From: Atribacter laminatus | GTDB lineage: Bacteria; Atribacterota; Atribacteria; Atribacterales; Atribacteraceae | DNA length: 64,000 nt | Direction of reading: 5' to 3' | Assembly: GCF_015775515.1 (NCBI RefSeq) | Contig: NZ_CP065383.1 | Coordinates: 1,240,001 to 1,304,000, forward strand | Part shown: positions 21,048 through 35,400 of the stretch, piece by piece | Layout: the number at the start of each line of letters is the position of its first letter | How positions within the stretch are numbered: the stretch's first letter is position 1 | Translations under genes and position numbers: made by a program | The notes under the pieces: generated by a model | The model's input: the letters and a program-made list of their open reading frames with translations, nothing else | Told to the model about the DNA's origin: nothing | Database searches by the model: none

Positions 21048-22457
21048 ATGAGTTCAGACCAGGAACATCGACAGCCGAATATCTCGAACGAGAGCTTCCT
21101 CAAAGGGGAAGCGGTGAATCCGTCTTCCTTCCGAGAAGTGCCGAGTTCCCGTCGGGCACCTCGACGCCAGCCTCCCAACGAAGCCACCCGGTTCCTCATG
21201 GAACAGGTTATCCAGAAAACCAATGTCCAGAAGGCTCTCAAACGGGTCATCGCTAACCGAGGAGCCGCGGGAGTGGATAAGATGGAGGTCACTGACCTTC
21301 CTGCTTTTCTCACCCGCTCCTGGCCCCGTATTCAAACTGAGCTTCTGACCGGTACCTATCACCCTCAGCCGGTCAAACGAGTGGAAATTCCCAAAGCGGG
21401 TGGGGGAACTCGCCTACTGGGGATTCCGACTGCCGTTGACCGGTTCATTCAACAAGCCATCCTCCAGGTTCTTTCCCCGCTCATTGACCCCACCTTCTCC
21501 GAGGCAAGCTTCGGATTTCGTCCGGGACGGAATGCCCATCAGGCCATCGAGCGGGCCAGACAGTATATCAAGGAAGGCTATGAAGTCGTGGTGGATATTG
21601 ACCTGGAGAAGTTCTTTGACCGAGTCAACCATGACATCCTCATGCATCGCCTCTCCTGTCGGATTGCGGATAAGCGCCTCTTGAAACTCATTCGGGCCTA
21701 TCTCTCCGCCGGGGTGATGGTGGAAGGGGTGCGGATGGACGTTGAAGAGGGAACTCCCCAGGGAGGTCCCTTGAGCCCACTCTTAGCAAACATCCTGCTC
21801 GATGACCTCGACCAGGAACTCACTCGCCGCGGTCACCGATTCGTTCGGTACGCCGATGACTGTAACATCTATGTCAAAACCGAACGGGCTGGGCAACGGG
21901 TCATGGATAGTGTCAAGGAATTTCTCTCAAAGAAGCTCAAACTCACCGTGAATAAAGAGAAAAGTGCAGTAGACCATGTCAAGAAACGGAAGTTCCTCGG
22001 ATTCTCTTTTCTCATCCGAAAAGGAGAAGTGTTGCTCACCTTACCCCGTCAGTCCAAAGAGCGGTTCAAGACGTCCATTCGGCGATTGACCGCCGGTCAT
22101 ACCGGGTGTCCACTTGCGGAGCGTATCCGTCGGCTCAATTCGTATCTTACCGGCTGGGTGGCGTACTACCACCATGCTGATACCTCCACGTTCTTTCGGG
22201 ACATGGATTCCTGGATACGTCATCGGTTGCGGATGTGTCTTTTGAAGCAATGGAAGAAGCCGGCAACGGTGAAGCGACACCTTTTGGCACGGGGAATCGC
22301 ACCGATTGAAGCCGCTCAACTGAGCAGTTCACGTCTGGGATATTGGCGATTATCACTCTCACCGCAAATGCATCGGGCATTTGATAATATCTTCTGGAAA
22401 TTAAACGGGTTGGTTAGTCTGTTAGACAAATACCAGAAGCTTCGGGTATCCTTTTGA
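21048..22457 (+). CDS. Group II intron reverse transcriptase/maturase
   Basis: A 469-residue intron-encoded protein that helps its own intron splice and retrotranspose. Reverse transcriptase blocks are seen in order: RGAAGVDKMEV, GFRPGRNAHQAI, VDIDLEKFFDRVNHDIL, GTPQGGPLSPLLANILLDDLD, and the catalytic RYADDCNIYVK (YADD). The maturase/X domain includes LNSYLTGWVAYYHHADT and QWKKPATVKRHLLARGI; GYWRLS lies near the end. No HNH endonuclease domain follows, as expected for the IIC class. ATG 21048 has GGGAG about 9 bp upstream. All motifs are intact, so the element may still be active. A separate frame at 20963-21256 is a shadow inside the intron RNA. Confidence 0.95.
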   Translation: MSSDQEHRQPNISNESFLKGEAVNPSSFREVPSSRRAPRRQPPNEATRFLMEQVIQKTNVQKALKRVIANRGAAGVDKMEVTDLPAFLTRSWPRIQTELLTGTYHPQPVKRVEIPKAGGGTRLLGIPTAVDRFIQQAILQVLSPLIDPTFSEASFGFRPGRNAHQAIERARQYIKEGYEVVVDIDLEKFFDRVNHDILMHRLSCRIADKRLLKLIRAYLSAGVMVEGVRMDVEEGTPQGGPLSPLLANILLDDLDQELTRRGHRFVRYADDCNIYVKTERAGQRVMDSVKEFLSKKLKLTVNKEKSAVDHVKKRKFLGFSFLIRKGEVLLTLPRQSKERFKTSIRRLTAGHTGCPLAERIRRLNSYLTGWVAYYHHADTSTFFRDMDSWIRHRLRMCLLKQWKKPATVKRHLLARGIAPIEAAQLSSSRLGYWRLSLSPQMHRAFDNIFWKLNGLVSLLDKYQKLRVSF

Positions 22458-25023: not shown

Positions 25024-26537
25024 ACTCAACTTTCGCAGTTCAATAATAGCACTTTTTCTCTCAACCATGCTGGAAGACTATTTACAAAATAGATGAGTAG
25101 CTCTTTGACTTTTTCTTCTGAAAGGACAAGAATCTGTTTGATGGTCGTCTTCAGGAGCTCAAGAAGAAGAGTGAGTGCTTCCATAAGAGTGATATCCTGA
25201 ATTTCATCATAGCAGGCATAGAAAAGCTCGCCAAAGGTTCGGGGATCGGTGTTTCTCCGGGCAATAACCGCGAGCATGATATAGCGGATAAAGACGATAC
25301 TGGTATGGGATACCAGAGCATCATAGGATCGAACCTGAAATTCCCGAGTGAGTTTCAAGACCGATTTCACCATCTTGAAGAAAACCTCGATATCCCAGCG
25401 TTTCCCATAGAGGGTGACGATCTCGTCTTCAGAAAGAGACAGATCAGTTGAAAGCAGTGCCAACCATTGAGATTTTTGTTTTTCACTTCGGACAAAGACA
25501 ATCCGAGCTAAAAGTGGTTTCCCAGTGAGATTGAGATTCACGACACCCGATCCAATGATATTGCCGTGTGGTCTTTTCTGAATTCTGGTGAAAAGAGAGG
25601 AAAGAGAAAGAACTTTTCCACCAAAAGAATAGTAAATTTTTGGGGTGTTTTTGAGCATGCACACCACTGATAATCCGCGAAGAGCACATTTGCGGATGAG
25701 GGCTGGAAAACTGAACCAACTATCAAAAAGAATAGTTGAGACCAAAGGACAGTGTTTTAAGGCTCCATCCAGTAGGTTGAAGAAGACTTCTGGAGTTTTT
25801 TCTTGGGATTCTTTCCGAAGACGAGCTCTTTTGCTCCGTCCATCAACGGAGGCATCCATGGGACAGAGCTGGTTTTCTTTTTGGTGAGAACTTAACAATG
25901 AAAAAGCAAAGGGAATGAATGTAGCACCATCGGTGAGTCCTAAAGTGAGCATTCTGAAACCCCGACTGAACCGTCCTTGGGCGTGATCATAGAATCGAGA
26001 GAGCCCTTCAACTTTCAAGCTCCGAGGCCGTTCATAGGGGGAATCATCCACCACCCAGGTGTAGCGTTTCAAACTGGTAAAAGGAAGGAGCGCTTCAGAG
26101 ACTACTTTGGTACTCAAAAGAAAGAGCAATTTTCGCCAGCTCCCACTGGTCTTGTGGAGGAAACGGTAAAGAGTGTCTTTCTTTCCTTGGAAAAGGGGAT
26201 GTCGAGATTGGAGAAGACCAGCAACGTTTTTCTGAGTAAAGACTAGGAGAAAGATCATCTGAAAGACGTCTTTGACTGGGAACCCTTTCTTTTTGTTCAT
26301 ATGGCATTTTCGAAACAGTTGGTTCACTTTAAACTCCTTCATAAAGGAGGAAAACATGGGTAACAAGGTCCTTTCATTTTTCAAATTTTCTGGTAGGATA
26401 GTCATGAAGACACCTCTCTCTTTGTGGTGATTGGTTTTTTTCCTTAAGTCAATTCTACCAGAAAGGAGGGGTGTTTTCATTAAAAAACCCTTTAAAATCA
26501 AGGTTTTTCAGCATTTATTTTAGTGCGAAAGTTGAGT
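25024..26537 (-). mobile_element. Complete IS4-superfamily insertion sequence
   Basis: A 1514-bp element bounded by 14-bp perfect terminal inverted repeats: ACTCAACTTTCGCA (25024-25037) and TGCGAAAGTTGAGT (26524-26537). TAAAT directly flanks both ends (25019-25023 and 26538-26542), a likely 5-bp target duplication. A single long transposase gene fills the element. A diverged second copy starts at 63473. Confidence 0.92.
25026..26405 (-). CDS. IS4-superfamily DDE transposase
   Basis: Cuts and pastes the surrounding IS element. The DDE catalytic set is visible: WVVDDSPYERP (first Asp), ILFDSWFSFPAL (second Asp) and the YREK-like block YGKRWDIEVFFKMVKSVLKL with its Glu. I place the start at the ATG at 26405 (460 residues, MTILPENLKNERT): GAGAGG lies about 9 bp upstream. 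A longer frame reaching 26501 would start inside the IS leader. The stop codon overlaps the left terminal repeat. It appears intact, so the element could be active. Confidence 0.93.
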   Translation of the reverse strand: MTILPENLKNERTLLPMFSSFMKEFKVNQLFRKCHMNKKKGFPVKDVFQMIFLLVFTQKNVAGLLQSRHPLFQGKKDTLYRFLHKTSGSWRKLLFLLSTKVVSEALLPFTSLKRYTWVVDDSPYERPRSLKVEGLSRFYDHAQGRFSRGFRMLTLGLTDGATFIPFAFSLLSSHQKENQLCPMDASVDGRSKRARLRKESQEKTPEVFFNLLDGALKHCPLVSTILFDSWFSFPALIRKCALRGLSVVCMLKNTPKIYYSFGGKVLSLSSLFTRIQKRPHGNIIGSGVVNLNLTGKPLLARIVFVRSEKQKSQWLALLSTDLSLSEDEIVTLYGKRWDIEVFFKMVKSVLKLTREFQVRSYDALVSHTSIVFIRYIMLAVIARRNTDPRTFGELFYACYDEIQDITLMEALTLLLELLKTTIKQILVLSEEKVKELLIYFVNSLPAWLREKVLLLNCES

Positions 26538-27341: not shown

Positions 27342-27375
27342 CTCAAAACCGATAATCTTTAATATAAAGGTATTC

Positions 27376-27972
27376 ACTCTTATCCTCACCTTCTCCTATT
27401 AAGGGAGAAAGAGCCCTGAATCGTCATTGCGAGGAACGCATTGACGTGGCAATCTCATGAGTTCAATCTTTTTTATTCCTCTCTTTATATAAATGAAGTT
27501 TGAGAAGGATTCGATTTTTTTCAGTTCTTTCAAATCCCCCATACCCCCTTTTCTAAAGGGGGAAGTTGATTTCTGGATGAGAAATCTTATCCTCATTTGG
27601 TACTACAAAGCAGCATGAATGTTTATCCTGAAAATATCATCAAATGAATTCTTTAATCGGTCATCCTGAGCCCTCGCTTTTCGAGGGCGTGAGGATCTCA
27701 TCTTGTAATTTTTTCTTTTATCCTTTCATTTTTTTTCATTCGCCCCCTCAGCCTTTATCGTGCCCGATTCATGTAGCGACATGCCATGGCATGTCGAATC
27801 CATGCCTCACCCTCATCCTTACCTTCTCCCATCAAGGGAGAAGAAACTCTGACTCGTCATTGCGAGGAACGAAGTGACGTGGCAATCTCTTGACTTTAAT
27901 CTTTTTTATTCCTCTCTCTTTAAATAAAGGGAGAAGGTTCGGGATTCGATTTTTTATCTAGTTCTTTCAAAT
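27376..27972. repeat. Composite repeat block (right arm, inverted relative to 22.5-23.3 kb)
   Basis: 27621-27972 is the reverse complement of 22967-23319 with few changes: the 77-residue frames they enclose (27644-27877 plus, 23063-23296 minus) differ by one residue. 27376-27620 is a second, more diverged unit in the same orientation. The pair therefore mirrors the tandem structure on the left side. Contains the 20-bp palindrome at 27777-27796. Confidence 0.9.
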
Positions 27973-28449
27973 CCCCCATACCCCCTTTTCTAAAGGGGGA
28001 AACTTTTTTCATGAGTTTTTCGCCACCAAAGTTCATCAATTCTTAATTTTTTTATTCGACTCACGACTCACTGTTTTTAGGAATGAGATTGCCATGTCGT
28101 TTAACCAAAAAACGGTTGACCTCCTTGCAATGACGGAACTGTAAAAATTCAAACCCACTTGAATCATCCCTTAATGGGGGAATAAATTCAACAATCCCCC
28201 TCCTCGAAGGCTCGGTGGTTGCGATTGCTTATTAAAAAATTATCCTTTATCATGGCGGCAATGAACATGATTTGGTATGAAATACATTATAATAATAAGA
28301 AATGAAGTTATTAATTCTAAATAATTATAGTATTTTCTCCTTTCATTAATTTGAATAATGTAAATTTAGCCTTATTAATGTCAGGCATGGTAGATTGAGT
28401 GTATTCAATTTTCGAGATTTTTATACTCTTGATTTTTTTATCTTAAATA
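27973..28449. other. Intergenic region upstream of the gluconate operon
   Basis: No gene. It starts with a CCCCCTTTTCTAAAGGGGG-type hairpin (about 27980-28000) and has a variant GATTGCCATGTCG...TTGCAATGACGG module at about 28088-28136. The remainder is AT-rich sequence that should contain the operon promoter, which I could not fix. Confidence 0.5.
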
Positions 28450-28494
28450 GTGGTTCCAGTTGATGGGGGTTTCATGCTTATTCAGGAGTCTAAG

Positions 28495-29976
28495 ATGATC
28501 AATTCTCAGGAATTAATACTCACCATTGATATAGGGACTTCTTCCTGCAAGGTTTGTCTTTTTGATTTATCTGGTGCTATTCGGGCTACCGCAAAAAGCG
28601 AGTATCCGACTTTATCTCCGCAGCCTTCCTTTGCTGAGCAAGACGTATCAGCTATTTATTCAGGCATTGTTCAGTCGGTGAAAGCAGTATTGTCCAAGCG
28701 TTCTCCTTCTCGAGTCATCGCCCTGGCTTGTGATACCATGCTTCATAGTACTTTGCTTCTCGATGAAGAAGGGGAACCTCTCTACCCTCTTTTAAACTGG
28801 ATGGATACTCGCTGTCAAGAAGAGTTGAAATTTCTCAATCAAGAATACCAAGAAAAGCGGTTCTACTTTCGCAACGGTGTTCCTCTTCATACCATTTACA
28901 CCCTTCCCCGTCTTATCTGGTTTCGAAAACACTATCCATCTTTACTACAGTCGGCTTGGAAAATAACTACTATTAAAGATTGGTTTTTAGGGAAAATCAC
29001 CGGGGAGTGGTTTTGTGATTATTCTACTGCTTCGGGAACCGGCCTTCTCAATCTTACCGGTAAATGTTGGGATAAGGAGATTCTCTCCAGCGCTCAGGTT
29101 TCTTTAAACCAATTCCTACCCCTTTGCGAACCGGATCATCGCCTTCCATTGCAGGTCAGTCCTTTTACCCATGATACCGGTCTTCTCCCGGGTATTCCAG
29201 TCATTTGGGGAGGAGGAGATGGTCCTTTTGCCAACTTAGGAGAGGGGATGTTTCATCAGCGAGAGATGGTGATTACGGTTGGTTCTTCAGGAGCAGTCCG
29301 AATGTGTGACCATCAACCGGTTTTTGATCCCAACCAACGAAGCTGGTGCTATTATCTTGCTGATGATATCTGGGTAGGGGGAGGAGCAATTAATAATGGC
29401 GGGATTGTCTATTCATGGATGAATGATCTTTTAAACGATGATGCTCAATGGGAGATTGATCCCCAGCGTCCTCGACCTTTATTTCTTCCCTTTTTAACTG
29501 GCGAACGAAGCCCGAACTGGAACGCCCAAGCCCGTGGGATCCTTTTTGGCCTTTCATATTTCCATACTAAAGAGGCTTTAATGCAATCAGCTTATGAGGG
29601 AATTGCTTTCCGTATTCGTTCGATTTACGAGCTTTTAAAAGATATCATTGGAGATCCCTGGCAAGTTGTTGTCAATGGTGGCTTTGGTATATCTCCGAAG
29701 GGAAGTCGTATTCTCTCCCATGTTTTAGGAATTCCTTTACAACTGAGCGAATTTCCTTCAGCACCTTGCCGGGGAGCATTTTTTTTGGCAATAAAAGCTT
29801 TAGGGCAGATTAAGCGTTTAGATGAAGTTTCTCAAAACCATTTGAACCAGCTAAATATTCTTCAACCGAACCCTGACTATAATGTTTTATATGATCAACT
29901 CTACCGATTTTATGAGAAAGTGTACCAAGCCAATCGGGGACTCTTTCAAGAATTTAGTGAATTTCATTTGGCATGA
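28495..29976 (+). CDS. Gluconate kinase, FGGY family
   Basis: Phosphorylates D-gluconate (or a related sugar acid or ketose) to the 6-phosphate. The N-terminal actin-like fold has LTIDIGTSSCKVCLFD (phosphate 1). Next come ALACDTMLHSTLLLDEEGEP and LNWMDTRCQ, a pattern I associate with FGGY gluconokinases rather than xylulokinases. DYSTASGTGLLNL and the C-terminal VVNGGFGISPKGSRILSHVLG (adenosine site) complete the fold. I prefer the ATG at 28495 (about 493 residues): GGAG lies 6-7 bp upstream, while a GTG 45 bp earlier has none. The next gene encodes 6-phosphogluconate dehydrogenase, which supports gluconate as the substrate. Confidence 0.85.
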   Translation: MINSQELILTIDIGTSSCKVCLFDLSGAIRATAKSEYPTLSPQPSFAEQDVSAIYSGIVQSVKAVLSKRSPSRVIALACDTMLHSTLLLDEEGEPLYPLLNWMDTRCQEELKFLNQEYQEKRFYFRNGVPLHTIYTLPRLIWFRKHYPSLLQSAWKITTIKDWFLGKITGEWFCDYSTASGTGLLNLTGKCWDKEILSSAQVSLNQFLPLCEPDHRLPLQVSPFTHDTGLLPGIPVIWGGGDGPFANLGEGMFHQREMVITVGSSGAVRMCDHQPVFDPNQRSWCYYLADDIWVGGGAINNGGIVYSWMNDLLNDDAQWEIDPQRPRPLFLPFLTGERSPNWNAQARGILFGLSYFHTKEALMQSAYEGIAFRIRSIYELLKDIIGDPWQVVVNGGFGISPKGSRILSHVLGIPLQLSEFPSAPCRGAFFLAIKALGQIKRLDEVSQNHLNQLNILQPNPDYNVLYDQLYRFYEKVYQANRGLFQEFSEFHLA

Positions 29977-30023
29977 TTAAAAAAAAGAGATAAGTACTTT
30001 CCTTGAAAGGAGAGGAAAAATGA

Positions 30024-31445
30024 ATGCCTGAAAAAAATGACCTGGCTTTGATCGGATTAGCAGTGATGGGTCAAAACCTAGCTCTTAATATTGCTAGACA
30101 CGGATATGCTTTAGCTGTTTATAACCGAACCTCGTCAAAAACTCATGATTTATTGGCCAGAAAATCTCCCAATGATAAGATCTTTCCTGCTTTTGATCTT
30201 ACCGAGCTGGTCGGTTCTTTAATAAAACCCCGTAAAATCCTGTTGATGGTGAAAGCCGGTCAACCGGTTGATGAGTTTCTCCTCCAACTTTATCCTCTTC
30301 TCGAAGCAGGAGATGTGATCATCGATGGAGGAAATTCGCACTTCCTGGATACCGAACGTCGGGAGCAGGAAGCCGAAAATCGTGGATTCTATTACTTAGG
30401 AACTGGAATTAGCGGAGGAGAAGAGGGTGCCTTGCAGGGCCCTTCGATTATGCCCGGGGGTCATCAGGCTGGATATGAACTGATTCAGGAAATCTTGCTG
30501 AAAGCAGCAGCTCAAACCGAAGATGGGCCTTGTTGTGTTTACTTGGGTCCGGGTGGAGCTGGCCACTTTGTAAAAATGGTTCACAATGGCATTGAATATG
30601 CCCTCATGGAGCTCATCGCTGAAGCTTACGATATCATGCGCACACTTTTCAAAATGGACCCTCCAGCTATAGCTGAAGTCTTCAAACAATGGAACCAACG
30701 AGAGAACTTGAATTCTTTTCTGCTTGAAATTTCAATAAAAGTCTTACATTATCGAGATCCGGAAACTGGTTTTTATCTCATCGATTTGATCGATGATCGA
30801 GCTGAACAAAAAGGAACCGGGAAATGGACTTCTCAAATCGCCCTGGATTTTGGTGTTCCTATTCCAACTATCAATCAAGCGGTGGTCGCTCGGGTTCTCT
30901 CAGCTCGAAAAGCGAACCGTCTCAAACTATCGGCAAAAATTCGCTCGAAAGCTTCTCTTTCCTTTTCTCATCAAGAAACCCAGCAGTCCCTTATTGCTTT
31001 AGCCGATGGATTATATCTGGCCAATCTCATGGCATTTAATGAGGGGATGCACATGCTTTTCGTTGCCTCTCAGGAAAAAGGTTGGAACCTTCCGCTGGCT
31101 GATATTGCCCGAATCTGGAAAGGAGGCTGTATTCTTCGGACCCGACTTTTAAACAGAATTCAGCTGGCTTTTCAAGACCCTAACTTAGAAATGCTTATTG
31201 AATCTCCAGAGTTTATTCCTGATCTCCAGAAAAAGCTTTCTTCGCTTTGTCAAGTTGCTAAAATTGGTGTGGAAAACCACCTTCCTCTTCCTTCTTTCCA
31301 AGGAGCATTGGCTTCACTCGAGGCCTGGTCTTCGTCATCGCTTCCAACCAACCTCATTCAAGCCCAACGAGATTTCTTTGGCGCTCATACCTATCGACGA
31401 ATTGACCGGGAAGGGATCTTTCATACCCAATGGGAGGATAAATAA
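30024..31445 (+). CDS. gnd: 6-phosphogluconate dehydrogenase (decarboxylating)
   Basis: Oxidises 6-phosphogluconate to ribulose 5-phosphate and CO2 with NAD(P)+. The Rossmann start is LALIGLAVMGQNLALNIARHGY, with VYNRT after strand 2 where NADP enzymes carry NRT. The active-site region has DGGNSHFLDTERR, GTGISGGEEGALQGPSIMPGG and FVKMVHNGIEYALMELIAEAYD, with the catalytic Lys and Asn. The length of 473 residues matches the long dimeric form. AAAGGAGAGG lies upstream. It sits 47 bp after the gluconate kinase and runs directly into the LarA-like gene, so a gluconate shunt is a coherent reading. Confidence 0.95.
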   Translation: MPEKNDLALIGLAVMGQNLALNIARHGYALAVYNRTSSKTHDLLARKSPNDKIFPAFDLTELVGSLIKPRKILLMVKAGQPVDEFLLQLYPLLEAGDVIIDGGNSHFLDTERREQEAENRGFYYLGTGISGGEEGALQGPSIMPGGHQAGYELIQEILLKAAAQTEDGPCCVYLGPGGAGHFVKMVHNGIEYALMELIAEAYDIMRTLFKMDPPAIAEVFKQWNQRENLNSFLLEISIKVLHYRDPETGFYLIDLIDDRAEQKGTGKWTSQIALDFGVPIPTINQAVVARVLSARKANRLKLSAKIRSKASLSFSHQETQQSLIALADGLYLANLMAFNEGMHMLFVASQEKGWNLPLADIARIWKGGCILRTRLLNRIQLAFQDPNLEMLIESPEFIPDLQKKLSSLCQVAKIGVENHLPLPSFQGALASLEAWSSSSLPTNLIQAQRDFFGAHTYRRIDREGIFHTQWEDK

Positions 31446-31447
31446 TT

Positions 31448-32746
31448 ATGATGAATGAGTTAGATGGCCCAGCCATCGGTCTTTCTGATTCAGAATTAAA
31501 GCAATTAATTTTTCGAGAGCTGGAAAAATATTCTTTTGAGGGAAAAAGGATTTTAGTTATTGTTCCCGATAACACTCGAACTATTCCTCTTCAGTTATTT
31601 TTCTCCTCTTTTCAAAATGCGCTTTTAAAACGGGTAAAAAAATTAGACTTTCTGATTGCTTTGGGAACTCACCCAGCCATGACGTCAGAACAAATACGTG
31701 GACATTTTGGAGTTACTCCATCCCAAGCAAAAGCATCTGGAATCAATATTTTTAATCATCAATGGGATGAACCCAGTCAGTTGAAACTTATTGGAACATT
31801 AGCTGAAGAGCAGGTGAAAAAAATAACCGGGGGTCTTCTATCGGAATCGATTCCTGTTGCGATCAACAAGAAAATTTTCGAGTATGATGAATTAATCATC
31901 CTGGGTCCAGTTTTTCCTCATGAAGTTGTTGGTTTTTCAGGGAGTTATAAGTATTTATTTCCAGGCATTTCAGGACCAGAAATTATCCATGCTTTTCATT
32001 GGTTGTCGGCTCTTATTACCAACCCAAAGACCATCGGTCATCGAGATACTCCACCTCGACAGGTTATCAACCAAGCAGCTCAATTGGTAGCCATACCAAT
32101 GACAGCTTTTTGTGTTGTTATGAAAGGGAAAGTTCCTTTTGGCCTCTTTACTGGAGATCCTGTTGAATCCTGGCAGCAGGCGGTTGGTTTATCAGCTCAG
32201 GTGAATGTAGTTTACAAGCCAAAGCCCTTCCCAAAGGTGATTTCGATTGCTCCGGCTATGTATTCCGAGCTTTGGGTGGGTGGAAAATGTATGTATAAAC
32301 TGGAACCGGTAGTTGATGATGGCGGCGAAATTATCATTTATGCTCCCCATCTTAAGGATGTTTCGATAACTCATGGGAAATACCTAATGGAAATTGGTTA
32401 TCATACTCGAGATTATTTTCTTGCCAATTGGGAGAAATGTCAGCATGTTCCCAAAGGTATTGTAGCTCATTCAACCCAGGTGAAGGGAATTGGTACTTAC
32501 AAGAATGGCAAAGAGTATCCACGAATTCAAGTAACCTTGGCTACTGGTCTTCCCCGCGAACTTTGTGAGTCAATCAATCTTGGCTATCTTGATTATCGTT
32601 CACTTAATCCCGATGACTACCTGGGGAAAGAAGAGGAAGGAATATTGGTGGTTCCCAATGCAGGAGAAACGCTTTATCGCCTTCAAGACGGAACTACTCC
32701 TGATATTGACCGCTTGCAAAGAGGTGAAAGGTCTTTTGGGAAATAA
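31448..32746 (+). CDS. LarA-family nickel-pincer racemase/epimerase homologue (possible D-gluconate 2-epimerase)
   Basis: A 432-residue protein of the lactate racemase LarA (DUF2088) family, which inverts an alpha-hydroxy acid carbon by hydride transfer through a tethered nickel-pincer nucleotide. Cofactor-binding positions appear conserved: His in LIALGTHPAM, the His/Lys pair in GPVFPHEVVGFSG and YKYLFPGISG (Lys for the covalent tether), and His in IHAFHWL. VPDNTRTIP opens the N-terminal domain. It begins 2 bp after the gnd stop, with GGGAGG upstream. Family members are known that epimerise D-gluconate at C2 (GntE); the operon with gluconate kinase and Gnd makes that the best guess, lactate or malate being alternatives. 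LarB, LarC and LarE are not in the window. Confidence 0.8.
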   Translation: MMNELDGPAIGLSDSELKQLIFRELEKYSFEGKRILVIVPDNTRTIPLQLFFSSFQNALLKRVKKLDFLIALGTHPAMTSEQIRGHFGVTPSQAKASGINIFNHQWDEPSQLKLIGTLAEEQVKKITGGLLSESIPVAINKKIFEYDELIILGPVFPHEVVGFSGSYKYLFPGISGPEIIHAFHWLSALITNPKTIGHRDTPPRQVINQAAQLVAIPMTAFCVVMKGKVPFGLFTGDPVESWQQAVGLSAQVNVVYKPKPFPKVISIAPAMYSELWVGGKCMYKLEPVVDDGGEIIIYAPHLKDVSITHGKYLMEIGYHTRDYFLANWEKCQHVPKGIVAHSTQVKGIGTYKNGKEYPRIQVTLATGLPRELCESINLGYLDYRSLNPDDYLGKEEEGILVVPNAGETLYRLQDGTTPDIDRLQRGERSFGK

Positions 32747-32799: not shown

Positions 32800-33306
32800 T
32801 GTTTTAAGATAGAGATCCATAGCTCTTGGCAATTCCAAATGAGGATGAAGATGAGTTGCCCCCTCACCCTGACCCTCTCCCACGAAGGGGCGAGGGAAAA
32901 AAGAGCAAAAGAATTCATATATCCTTCTCCCTTGATGGGAGAAGGCGAGGATGAGGGCGAAAGCCCAGAATGAGATCCTGGTAAGTTGCTTTAAAAGAAT
33001 TACCTTAAAAAATGTTCTGTTATTTTCAGGATCGACCCTCATGCTGCTTTTGCAGCACCAGTTGATGGTGAAAATACTTACCCAGGAATCGTTTCCCCCT
33101 TTAGCAAAGGGGGTGAGGGGGATTTGAGTTTTTTCCTGCTCGGTCATTGCGAGGAGCGTTTTATGCGACGTGGCAATCTCATCTTTTAAAGTATTTGAGA
33201 TCCTCACGCCCTCACAAAGCGAGGGCTCAGGATGACCGATTAAAGGCACACCCCCCTTTATCCCCCCTCAATGGGGGAATTTATAAGATGGTATTTTCAG
33301 GATAGA
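32800..33306. repeat. Composite hairpin-repeat block (upstream flank of pfkB)
   Basis: No gene. The order is: CCCTCTCCCACGAAGGGGCGAGGG, CCTTCTCCCTTGATGGGAGAAGG (about 32923-32945), TTTTCAGGATCGACC, TGCTGCTTTTGCAGCA, CCCCCTTTAGCAAAGGGGG, GTCATTGCGAGG...GACGTGGCAATC, CGCCCTCACAAAGCGAGGG, and CCCCCCTCAATGGGGG...TTTTCAGGATAGA. The same series recurs in the same orientation at 34425-35006 beyond pfkB. The minus-strand frame 32755-33249 across it is not a gene. Confidence 0.85.
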
Positions 33307-33482: not shown

Positions 33483-34421
33483 ATGGAAATCATTATTTCG
33501 GTAGCGATGAATCCGGCGGTAGACAAGAGTTCAAGCGTAGAACACGTCATTCCTGAACACAAACTCTATTGTAAGGCTCCCCATTTTGAACCAGGAGGAG
33601 GGGGAGTCAATGTATCCCGTGCAATAAAAAAATTGGGGGGAGAATCACTGCTCTTTTATCCCTCAGGAGGACTGACGGGAAAGATGTTGGAAAACCTTTT
33701 ACTGCAAGAGAACATAAACCACTATCCAATTCCCATCGAAGGTGTGATGAGAGAAAACCTCATCGTGTTGGAAGAAAGTACCGGGCAACAATTCCGATTT
33801 GGAATGCCAGGACCGTTTATGAGTAAGCAGGAATGGGAGAGATGTCTCAATGAGCTGTTTGATTTCAAACCAAAACCGAACTATCTCGTGATCAGTGGAA
33901 GCCTTCCACCAGGTGTTCCATCAGACTTTTATGCACGAGTTGCCAAGAAGGGGAAAGAGAGCGGAATAAAAGTGATCATTGATGCCTCTGGGGAAGCTCT
34001 GAAGCTTGCCCTCCAAGTAGGTGTTTATCTGGTTAAGCCTAACATCCGTGAATTTAAAGAGCTCTTGGGTTCGGATGTTCAGGAAGAGTCACAAATTGAG
34101 TTTGAAGCGACGAAGATGATCGAAAGCGGTTGGTGTGAAGTCTTGGTTATTTCCTTAGGTGCAGCAGGGGCTTTGATGGTATCAAGAAATACCGTTGAGT
34201 ATATTAGACCACCAACGGTTCAAGTCGTCAGTAAGGTTGGAGCTGGAGATAGTATGGTTGCCGGTATCGTTCTCAGTTTATTCCGTGGAAATACCTTGCG
34301 AAATTCAATTCTTTTTGGAATAGCAGCGGGGTCTGCAGCGGTAATGACTCCGGGTACGGAGCTTTGCCGAAGAGAAGATACTGAACGATTGTATGAAAAA
34401 CTACTTTCTTCTACCAAGTAA
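33483..34421 (+). CDS. pfkB: 6-phosphofructokinase II (PfkB type)
   Basis: ATP-dependent sugar-phosphate kinase of the ribokinase/PfkB fold, most like E. coli Pfk-2, phosphorylating fructose 6-phosphate (or tagatose 6-phosphate). Visible: FEPGGGGVNVSRAI (substrate glycines), YLVISGSLPPGVP, DASGEALKLAL, LVKPNIREFKELLG, and VGAGDSMVAGIVL with the catalytic Asp. The tail GTELCRREDTERLYEKL resembles the Pfk-2 C-terminus. I take the ATG at 33483 (about 313 residues) with GAGAAGG upstream; a TTG further upstream would add 12 unlikely residues. It is isolated between two long direct-repeat blocks. 1-phosphofructokinase is the main alternative. Confidence 0.88.
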   Translation: MEIIISVAMNPAVDKSSSVEHVIPEHKLYCKAPHFEPGGGGVNVSRAIKKLGGESLLFYPSGGLTGKMLENLLLQENINHYPIPIEGVMRENLIVLEESTGQQFRFGMPGPFMSKQEWERCLNELFDFKPKPNYLVISGSLPPGVPSDFYARVAKKGKESGIKVIIDASGEALKLALQVGVYLVKPNIREFKELLGSDVQEESQIEFEATKMIESGWCEVLVISLGAAGALMVSRNTVEYIRPPTVQVVSKVGAGDSMVAGIVLSLFRGNTLRNSILFGIAAGSAAVMTPGTELCRREDTERLYEKLLSSTK

Positions 34422-34424
34422 TGT

Positions 34425-35400
34425 TTAGATAGACCCTCATGCTGCTTTCGCAGCACCAGATGAGGATGAAAATAAGTTGCCCCCTCACCCTGACCCTCTC
34501 CCACGAAGGGGCGAGGGAAAAAAGAGCAAAAGAATTCATATATCCTTCTCCCTTGATGGGAGAAGGTGAGAATGAGGGTGAAAGCCCAGAATGAAATTTT
34601 GGTTAGTTGCTCTAAAAGAATTACCTTAAAAAACGTTTCGGTATTTTCAGGATAGACCCTCATGCTGCTTTCGCAGCACCAGATGAGGATGAAAATACTT
34701 ACCCAGGAATCGCTTCCCCCTTTAGCAAAGGGGGTTAGGGGGATTTGAGTTTTTTCCTGTTCCGTCATTGCGAGGAGCGCAGCGACGTGGCAATCTCTGC
34801 CATCCACTTAGTCATTATGAGGAGTCCGGTGTTTTTGCCGGACGACGTGAGAATCTCATCCTTTAAAGTATTTATGAAGAAAAAACTTAAAAGATGAGAT
34901 CCTCACGCCCTCAAAAAGCGAGGGCTCAGGATGACCGATTAAAGGCACACCCCCCTTTATCCCCCCTCAATGGGGGAATTTATAAGATGGTATTTTCAGG
35001 ATAGACCTTCATGCTGCTTTCGCAGCACCAGATGAATATGAAAATAAGTTGCCCCCTCACCCTGGCCCTCTCCCACCGAGGGGCGAGGGAAAAAAGAACA
35101 AAAGAATTCAGAGTTCCTTCTTCCTTGATGGGAGAAGGTGAGGATGAGGGTGAAAACCAAGAATGAGATTAAGGTTGGTTGCTTTGAAAGAATTACCTAA
35201 AAACGTTTCGATATTTTCAGGATAGAAAATAATAAAGATTGAGCATGAGAGATTGCCACGTCACTTCGTTCCTCGCAATGACGATTTAGAGTTCCTTCTC
35301 CCTTGATGGGAGAAGGTGAGGATGAGGGTGAAAGTTCAGAATGAAATTTTGGTTAGTTGCTCTAAAAGAATTACCTTAAAAAACGTTTCTGTATTTTCAG
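34425..35400. repeat. Composite hairpin-repeat block (downstream flank of pfkB, about 2.5 rounds)
   Basis: No gene in nearly 1 kb. The first round (34428-35006) repeats the block at 32.8-33.3 kb in direct orientation, with an extra GTCCGGTGTTTTTGCCGGAC hairpin. It is followed by two shorter rounds, each with CCTTCTCCC/TTCCTTGATGGGAGAAGG and an ATTTTCAGGATAGA end. 34713-35005 is the inverted partner of 7800-8091. The last round stops at TATTTTCAG, 36 bp before the ATPase start. The minus-strand frame 34220-34807 is not a gene. Confidence 0.88.

Follow-up and report, generated by a model that had tools for sequence, protein, structure and literature searches.

Within a 64,000-nucleotide window of the Atribacter laminatus genome (phylum Atribacterota; a single contig of 3,101,225 bases), three consecutive genes, gntK, gnd and gntE, very probably specify a shunt of the GntE type, in which D-mannonate, supplied via UxaE and a D-mannonate oxidoreductase, would be converted through D-gluconate and 6-phosphogluconate to ribulose 5-phosphate. 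At the centre of this unit stands gntE, a homologue of the nickel-pincer enzyme LarA, whose substrate pair (D-mannonate/D-gluconate) and direction (from mannonate to gluconate) we infer from sequence and genomic context. The three genes are:

28495..29976, + strand: gntK, an FGGY-family kinase, most likely a gluconokinase (a mannonate kinase is possible)
30024..31445, + strand: gnd, a decarboxylating NADP-dependent 6-phosphogluconate dehydrogenase
31448..32746, + strand: gntE, a LarA-superfamily nickel-pincer nucleotide (NPN) D-gluconate/D-mannonate 2-epimerase homologue

The genes are tightly spaced, as a preliminary description of the locus had noted, and lie on one strand, with gaps of 47 bp (gntK to gnd) and 2 bp (gnd to gntE), and a Shine-Dalgarno-like sequence precedes each start. 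The gntK reading frame is open from a GTG at 28450; the ATG at 28495 is the better start because an AGGAG motif (28484-28488) ends six bases before it. We infer that the three genes are co-transcribed. Promoter and terminator scans returned no more than shuffled DNA did, and an Rfam search gave no match.

The gntE product carries the Pfam domain Lar_N (PF09861; 80 bits, cut-off 23), and its best NCBIfam model is NF052594, 'nickel-dependent putative hexonate epimerase' (188 bits), followed by malate racemase (98 bits) and lactate racemase (74 bits). Its best PDB chain by sequence is 4nar (E 8e-64, 219 bits), the next being a lactate racemase at 40 bits. 4NAR is GntE2 (LarAH20) of Thermotoga maritima, for which D-mannonate/D-gluconate epimerase activity has been shown (PMC7583248). 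The fold points the same way: the AlphaFold model of gntE (predicted local distance difference test 92.1, predicted template modelling score 0.90) matches 4nar with a template modelling (TM) score of 0.86 at 2.2 Å in Foldseek, other LarA structures reach a TM score of at most 0.75, and all 19 PDB matches with E <=1e-3 are LarA-type structures. Specifically, the NPN-binding residues R44, K168 and H184 align with R41, K164 and H180 of GntE2, and the catalytic residues D41, H75, H158 and K280 with D38, H73, H154 and K287; all cofactor and catalytic residues are kept, as the preliminary description had noted for the cofactor His/His/Lys/His positions. A hexonate signature is also retained, with E159-V160 after the catalytic H158, where LarA and Mar2 have bulky or charged specificity-loop residues, and W185 after the cofactor-binding H184. 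Among the non-plasmid sequences of the hexonate branch, E and W occur in 29 of 29 and V or S in 26 of 29 (I in L032, A in L042 and L049).

This branch was delineated in a maximum-likelihood tree of 44 proteins, in which GntE2 (4NAR) was the only characterised GntE included. A 100/100 split separates 12 LarA/Mar-type sequences from the hexonate branch, which comprises the clade of the window's gntE, proteins of JS1-type Atribacterota (Atribacterota of other orders, so called from their gene clusters, a presumptive name), 4NAR and the group-18 proteins of Catenovulum and Saccharobesus. The grouping with lactate or malate racemases that was to be looked for is thus absent, and gntE falls with GntE2, its best match by both sequence and fold. 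Inside the hexonate branch, where long branches were flagged and the order is less sure, the gntE clade is separate from group 18 and from the GntE2 clade.

The enzymes encoded next to gntE fit a gluconate-processing unit. By sequence, gnd is unequivocally assigned as a 6-phosphogluconate dehydrogenase: its 6PGD/NAD_binding_2 Pfam matches lie far above cut-off, it passes two equivalog models (NF006765, 609 bits, cut-off 413; TIGR00873, 576 bits, cut-off 427) and its PDB matches are 6-phosphogluconate dehydrogenases (best E 7e-139). The kinase, with FGGY_N/FGGY_C matches far above cut-off, is most likely a gluconokinase, since its best NCBIfam model is the gluconokinase TIGR01314 (276 bits; xylulokinase, 256) and its nearest solved structure in the PDB is the gluconate kinase 3gbt (215 bits; xylulose kinase, 148). 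The gluconate kinase of the preliminary description is borne out to this extent, with the reservation about the TIGR01314 cut-off given below.

The genes for making the cofactor, whose absence would have left an orphan LarA, are all encoded in the genome, so that this possibility is ruled out. Profile searches of the genome placed larB (299 bits, cut-off 175) at C1:3069079, larC (domains of 191 and 142 bits, cut-offs 90 and 50) adjoining it at C1:3069730, and larE (300 bits, cut-off 150) at C1:1032917. Because no LarA homologue other than gntE was found in the genome, larB, larC and larE have no other evident client.

In established LarA chemistry, the nickel-pincer cofactor accepts a hydride from C2 of the substrate in a proton-coupled transfer; two histidines take turns as acid and base, and the configuration is inverted. 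In the predicted pathway, UxaE would convert tagaturonate to fructuronate, which the short-chain dehydrogenase/reductase (SDR) D-mannonate oxidoreductase would reduce to D-mannonate. GntE, loaded with the nickel-pincer nucleotide that LarB, LarC and LarE produce, would then invert C2 of D-mannonate to yield D-gluconate via transient hydride transfer to the cofactor, H75 and H158 serving as alternate acid and base. GntK would phosphorylate D-gluconate to 6-phosphogluconate, and Gnd would decarboxylate the latter to ribulose 5-phosphate, with reduction of NADP. Both feeding enzymes are encoded in the genome: uxaE at C1:1217427 (482 bits) and the SDR oxidoreductase at C1:1784007 (321 bits, cut-off 281). 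The mannonate dehydratase UxuA was not found in this genome, and two enolase-superfamily dehydratases both fall short of the ManD cut-off. A missing UxuA together with the presence of UxaE and the oxidoreductase favours the flow from mannonate to gluconate. The preliminary description had allowed either direction. Entry of D-mannonate into the oxidative pentose phosphate route is the part that these genes support; the reverse flow, from gluconate via mannonate to 2-keto-3-deoxygluconate, is disfavoured by the lack of UxuA and the sub-threshold dehydratases. One of these two is galactonate-dehydratase-like (308 bits, cut-off 311), which leaves some room for a sugar-acid dehydratase in the genome. 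Growth of A. laminatus on pectin has been reported (PMC7736352).

The association of gntE with gnd extends well beyond this genome. Comparison of the window's locus with those of 19 relatives, whose identity reaches down to ~50%, shows gnd immediately before gntE at each of the 20 loci, and the same order holds in 8 of 8 JS1-type neighbourhoods read; because the adjacency is kept throughout, it is not due to chance. JS1-type loci combine gnd and gntE with UxaE, a D-mannonate oxidoreductase of the SDR type (364 bits, cut-off 281) and a pyrophosphate-type phosphofructokinase (PFK); one of them (L042) also has IolM, IolN and IolO above their cut-offs and another (L041) has UxaC. Within the same order, a genome consisting of a single 2.27-Mb contig (G012) carries an IolM/IolN pair, a sugar ABC transporter, uxaE, mannonate oxidoreductase and gntK in succession, with gntK ~15 kb from gnd-gntE. 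In this genome a second hexonate-type LarA homologue (L032:4001-5269, G012:C1:466000-467268; 49% identity to gntE) lies ~12 kb from the gnd-linked copy. Across 25 sampled genomes of other orders (G025-G049), mostly incomplete assemblies, hexonate-type LarA homologues occur in 14, glucose-6-phosphate dehydrogenase (G6PDH) was found in one and a convincing UxuA in none.

A scan of GTDB genomes yielded 582 confirmed gntE relatives, and the loci of the best 80, from many phyla and 47-89% identical, were compared. The commonest neighbour is the D-mannonate oxidoreductase (36 loci), followed by gnd (29, of which 28 on the same strand), PFK (16), uxaE (12) and uxaC (7); 45 of the 80 have one or more of gnd, mannonate oxidoreductase, uxaE and uxaC near gntE, and a Chthonomonas metagenome-assembled genome shows the order uxaC, SDR, gntE. 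A HAD-like protein of ~350 residues with a weak Pfam match (L148:4899-5966, L042:12788-13831) recurs beside gntE: its cluster is represented in 22 of the 80 distant loci, and a 347-residue open reading frame occupies that place in most JS1-type loci. It is possibly a sugar-acid phosphatase or another pathway member.

A pyrophosphate-type PFK adjoins gntE in many relatives. In the window, pfkB (33483-34421) was considered as a fourth operon gene and excluded, as ~740 bp of repeat-rich DNA intervene. Dispersed intergenic repeats at 27374-28010, 32826-33306 and 34417-35400 flank the operon and pfkB; they are up to 300 nt long and 61-99% alike, and include a 42-nt 'TCATTGCGAGGAACG...GACGTGGCAATCTC' element. 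Upstream of the operon are a transposase-like open reading frame (25026-26501) and a group II intron reverse transcriptase/maturase (21048-22457).

Group 18 of the NPN enzymes, the family described by NF052594, offers a further view of such loci on marine plasmids. A plasmid of Saccharobesus litoralis encodes a GntK/IdnK gluconokinase (185 bits) fused to a group-18 LarA homologue (619 bits on NF052594):

L168:4482-6251 = NZ_CP026605.1 151759-153528, Saccharobesus litoralis plasmid: gluconokinase-LarA fusion

After the fusion gene come larB, a gene for a tagaturonate epimerase and gnd; a Catenovulum plasmid carries uxaC, a TRAP transporter, gluconokinase, a LarA homologue, larC and larB near one another. 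This natural fusion suggests that the 'putative hexonate' enzymes of group 18 act on gluconate.

Several observations weigh against the reading of the A. laminatus operon as a mannonate-to-ribulose 5-phosphate shunt. Neither of the two central enzymes reaches the cut-off of its best family, the kinase scoring 276 against the 649 bits of TIGR01314 and gntE 188 against the 500 bits of NF052594, for which other members of the window's clade score 163-200 and the two plasmid proteins 619-621. The identity of gntE to GntE2 is only ~31% in the structural alignment, and N348 of GntE2 is replaced by G337, the position being G, A or C across the clade, so that substrate preference could differ. In this genome, uxaE and the oxidoreductase are unlinked to gntK-gnd-gntE, and G6PDH is present, which provides an ordinary feed for gnd as well. 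No evident source of tagaturonate was found, as the genome has no match to the uronate isomerase UxaC (PF02614) and no IolO above cut-off, only IolO-like proteins; a Zn-dependent dehydrogenase encoded immediately before uxaE (C1:1216243-1217271) is the first candidate for this role. An inositol route of the genome's own was considered and rejected: IolO falls under its cut-off, and the stretches around the IolO-like genes hold no IolN and only distant IolM relatives. Finally, none of gnd, mannonate oxidoreductase, uxaE and uxaC lies near gntE in 35 of the 80 distant loci; planctomycetes account for many of these, and some of the loci end at a contig edge.

Two alternative models that retain sugar-acid chemistry can be envisioned. 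Phosphorylation might come first, the FGGY kinase making 6-phosphomannonate that the LarA homologue would epimerise to 6-phosphogluconate; the kinase is no clear-cut gluconokinase, the two genes are neighbours and a fusion of both domain kinds exists. We regard this order as unlikely, given that the characterised GntE1, GntE2 and LarAH15 use free D-mannonate (PMC7583248, PMC11770544) and that the Saccharobesus fusion contains a gluconokinase of the GntK/IdnK kind. Somewhat less probable still is that gntE epimerises another hexonate or an aldarate, with the adjacency of gnd reflecting general sugar-acid metabolism. GntE1 of Corynebacterium glutamicum has a very high Michaelis constant, leading its authors to suspect a different native substrate (PMC7583248), the N348 position varies as described above, and gnd and mannonate oxidoreductase are missing nearby in many loci of the clade; against this, the next two enzymes of the operon act on gluconate and 6-phosphogluconate, the gnd adjacency is phylum-wide, and mannonate oxidoreductase is the commonest gntE neighbour across phyla. 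A lactate or malate racemase in an incidental neighbourhood, which the Pfam family name 'Lactate racemase N-terminal domain' would suggest, is contradicted by the 100/100 tree split, by the racemase scores (malate 98 and lactate 74 bits versus hexonate 188) and by the E-V in place of the bulky or charged loop residues of LarA and Mar2, and deserves practically no credence.

The GntE-type shunt, and with it the epimerase reading of the preliminary description, is thus supported, yet neither the enzyme nor the operon type is a new kind of system: both are already known from T. maritima, where the UxaR-regulated operon is aldH-pelB-gnd-uxaRED-gntEK (PMC7583248, PMC3750489). Shared with T. maritima are the superfamily branch of GntE2 with its catalytic and cofactor residues, the partners gnd and gntK, a genome that also encodes UxaE and a reductase forming mannonate, and the predicted flow from mannonate through gluconate and 6-phosphogluconate to ribulose 5-phosphate (PMC7583248, PMC3750489). 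Conversely, gntE is ~31% identical to GntE2, from which it differs by a V in place of the loop S and a G in place of N348; the Atribacter order is gntK-gnd-gntE with uxaE and mannonate oxidoreductase unlinked; and uxuA and uxaC, both present in T. maritima, were not found in the Atribacter genome. NF052594, the best-scoring curated family, has the HEV loop in common with gntE, and its plasmid proteins likewise lie near gluconokinase and uxaC, uxaE or gnd, whereas gntE, which scores 188 bits where 500 are required and shares 26-27% identity, belongs to a separate clade. For GntE1 (LarAH19) and for LarAH15 of Phytophthora nicotianae, which belong to the same superfamily, D-mannonate/D-gluconate epimerase activity has been published (PMC7583248, PMC11770544). 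The mannonate kinase/6-phosphomannonate 2-epimerase pathway of Lactobacillus suebicus also leads from mannonate to 6-phosphogluconate without a dehydratase (PMC6978723), but there phosphorylation precedes epimerisation. Among the papers searched, none ties Atribacter to a gluconate epimerase. The new elements are modest: a GntE subclade that spans phyla and has no matching NCBIfam model, the linkage to inositol-pathway genes in JS1-type relatives, most of which are without G6PDH, and the natural gluconokinase-LarA fusion on a marine plasmid.

Tentatively, and with the balance of our judgement slightly against it, one may go further and propose that in Atribacterota, above all in JS1-type members without G6PDH and mannonate dehydratase, the oxidative pentose phosphate route is entered mainly or solely through the nickel-pincer epimerase, which would be fed by inositol (IolM-IolN-IolO) and by hexuronates via UxaE and mannonate oxidoreductase, with gntE belonging to a separate, phylum-spanning GntE subclade with substrate-pocket residues of its own. 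The gluconokinase-LarA fusion provides independent support for assigning group 18 to gluconate. More broadly, the nickel-dependent route for sugar acids, documented biochemically in T. maritima and a few other organisms, would now reach a phylum that has received little study, together with a large subclade of uncharacterised proteins in Planctomycetota, Verrucomicrobiota, Omnitrophota, Chloroflexota and others. Many proteins that bear no label beyond 'lactate racemase domain' would thereby gain a clear hypothesis for their substrate.
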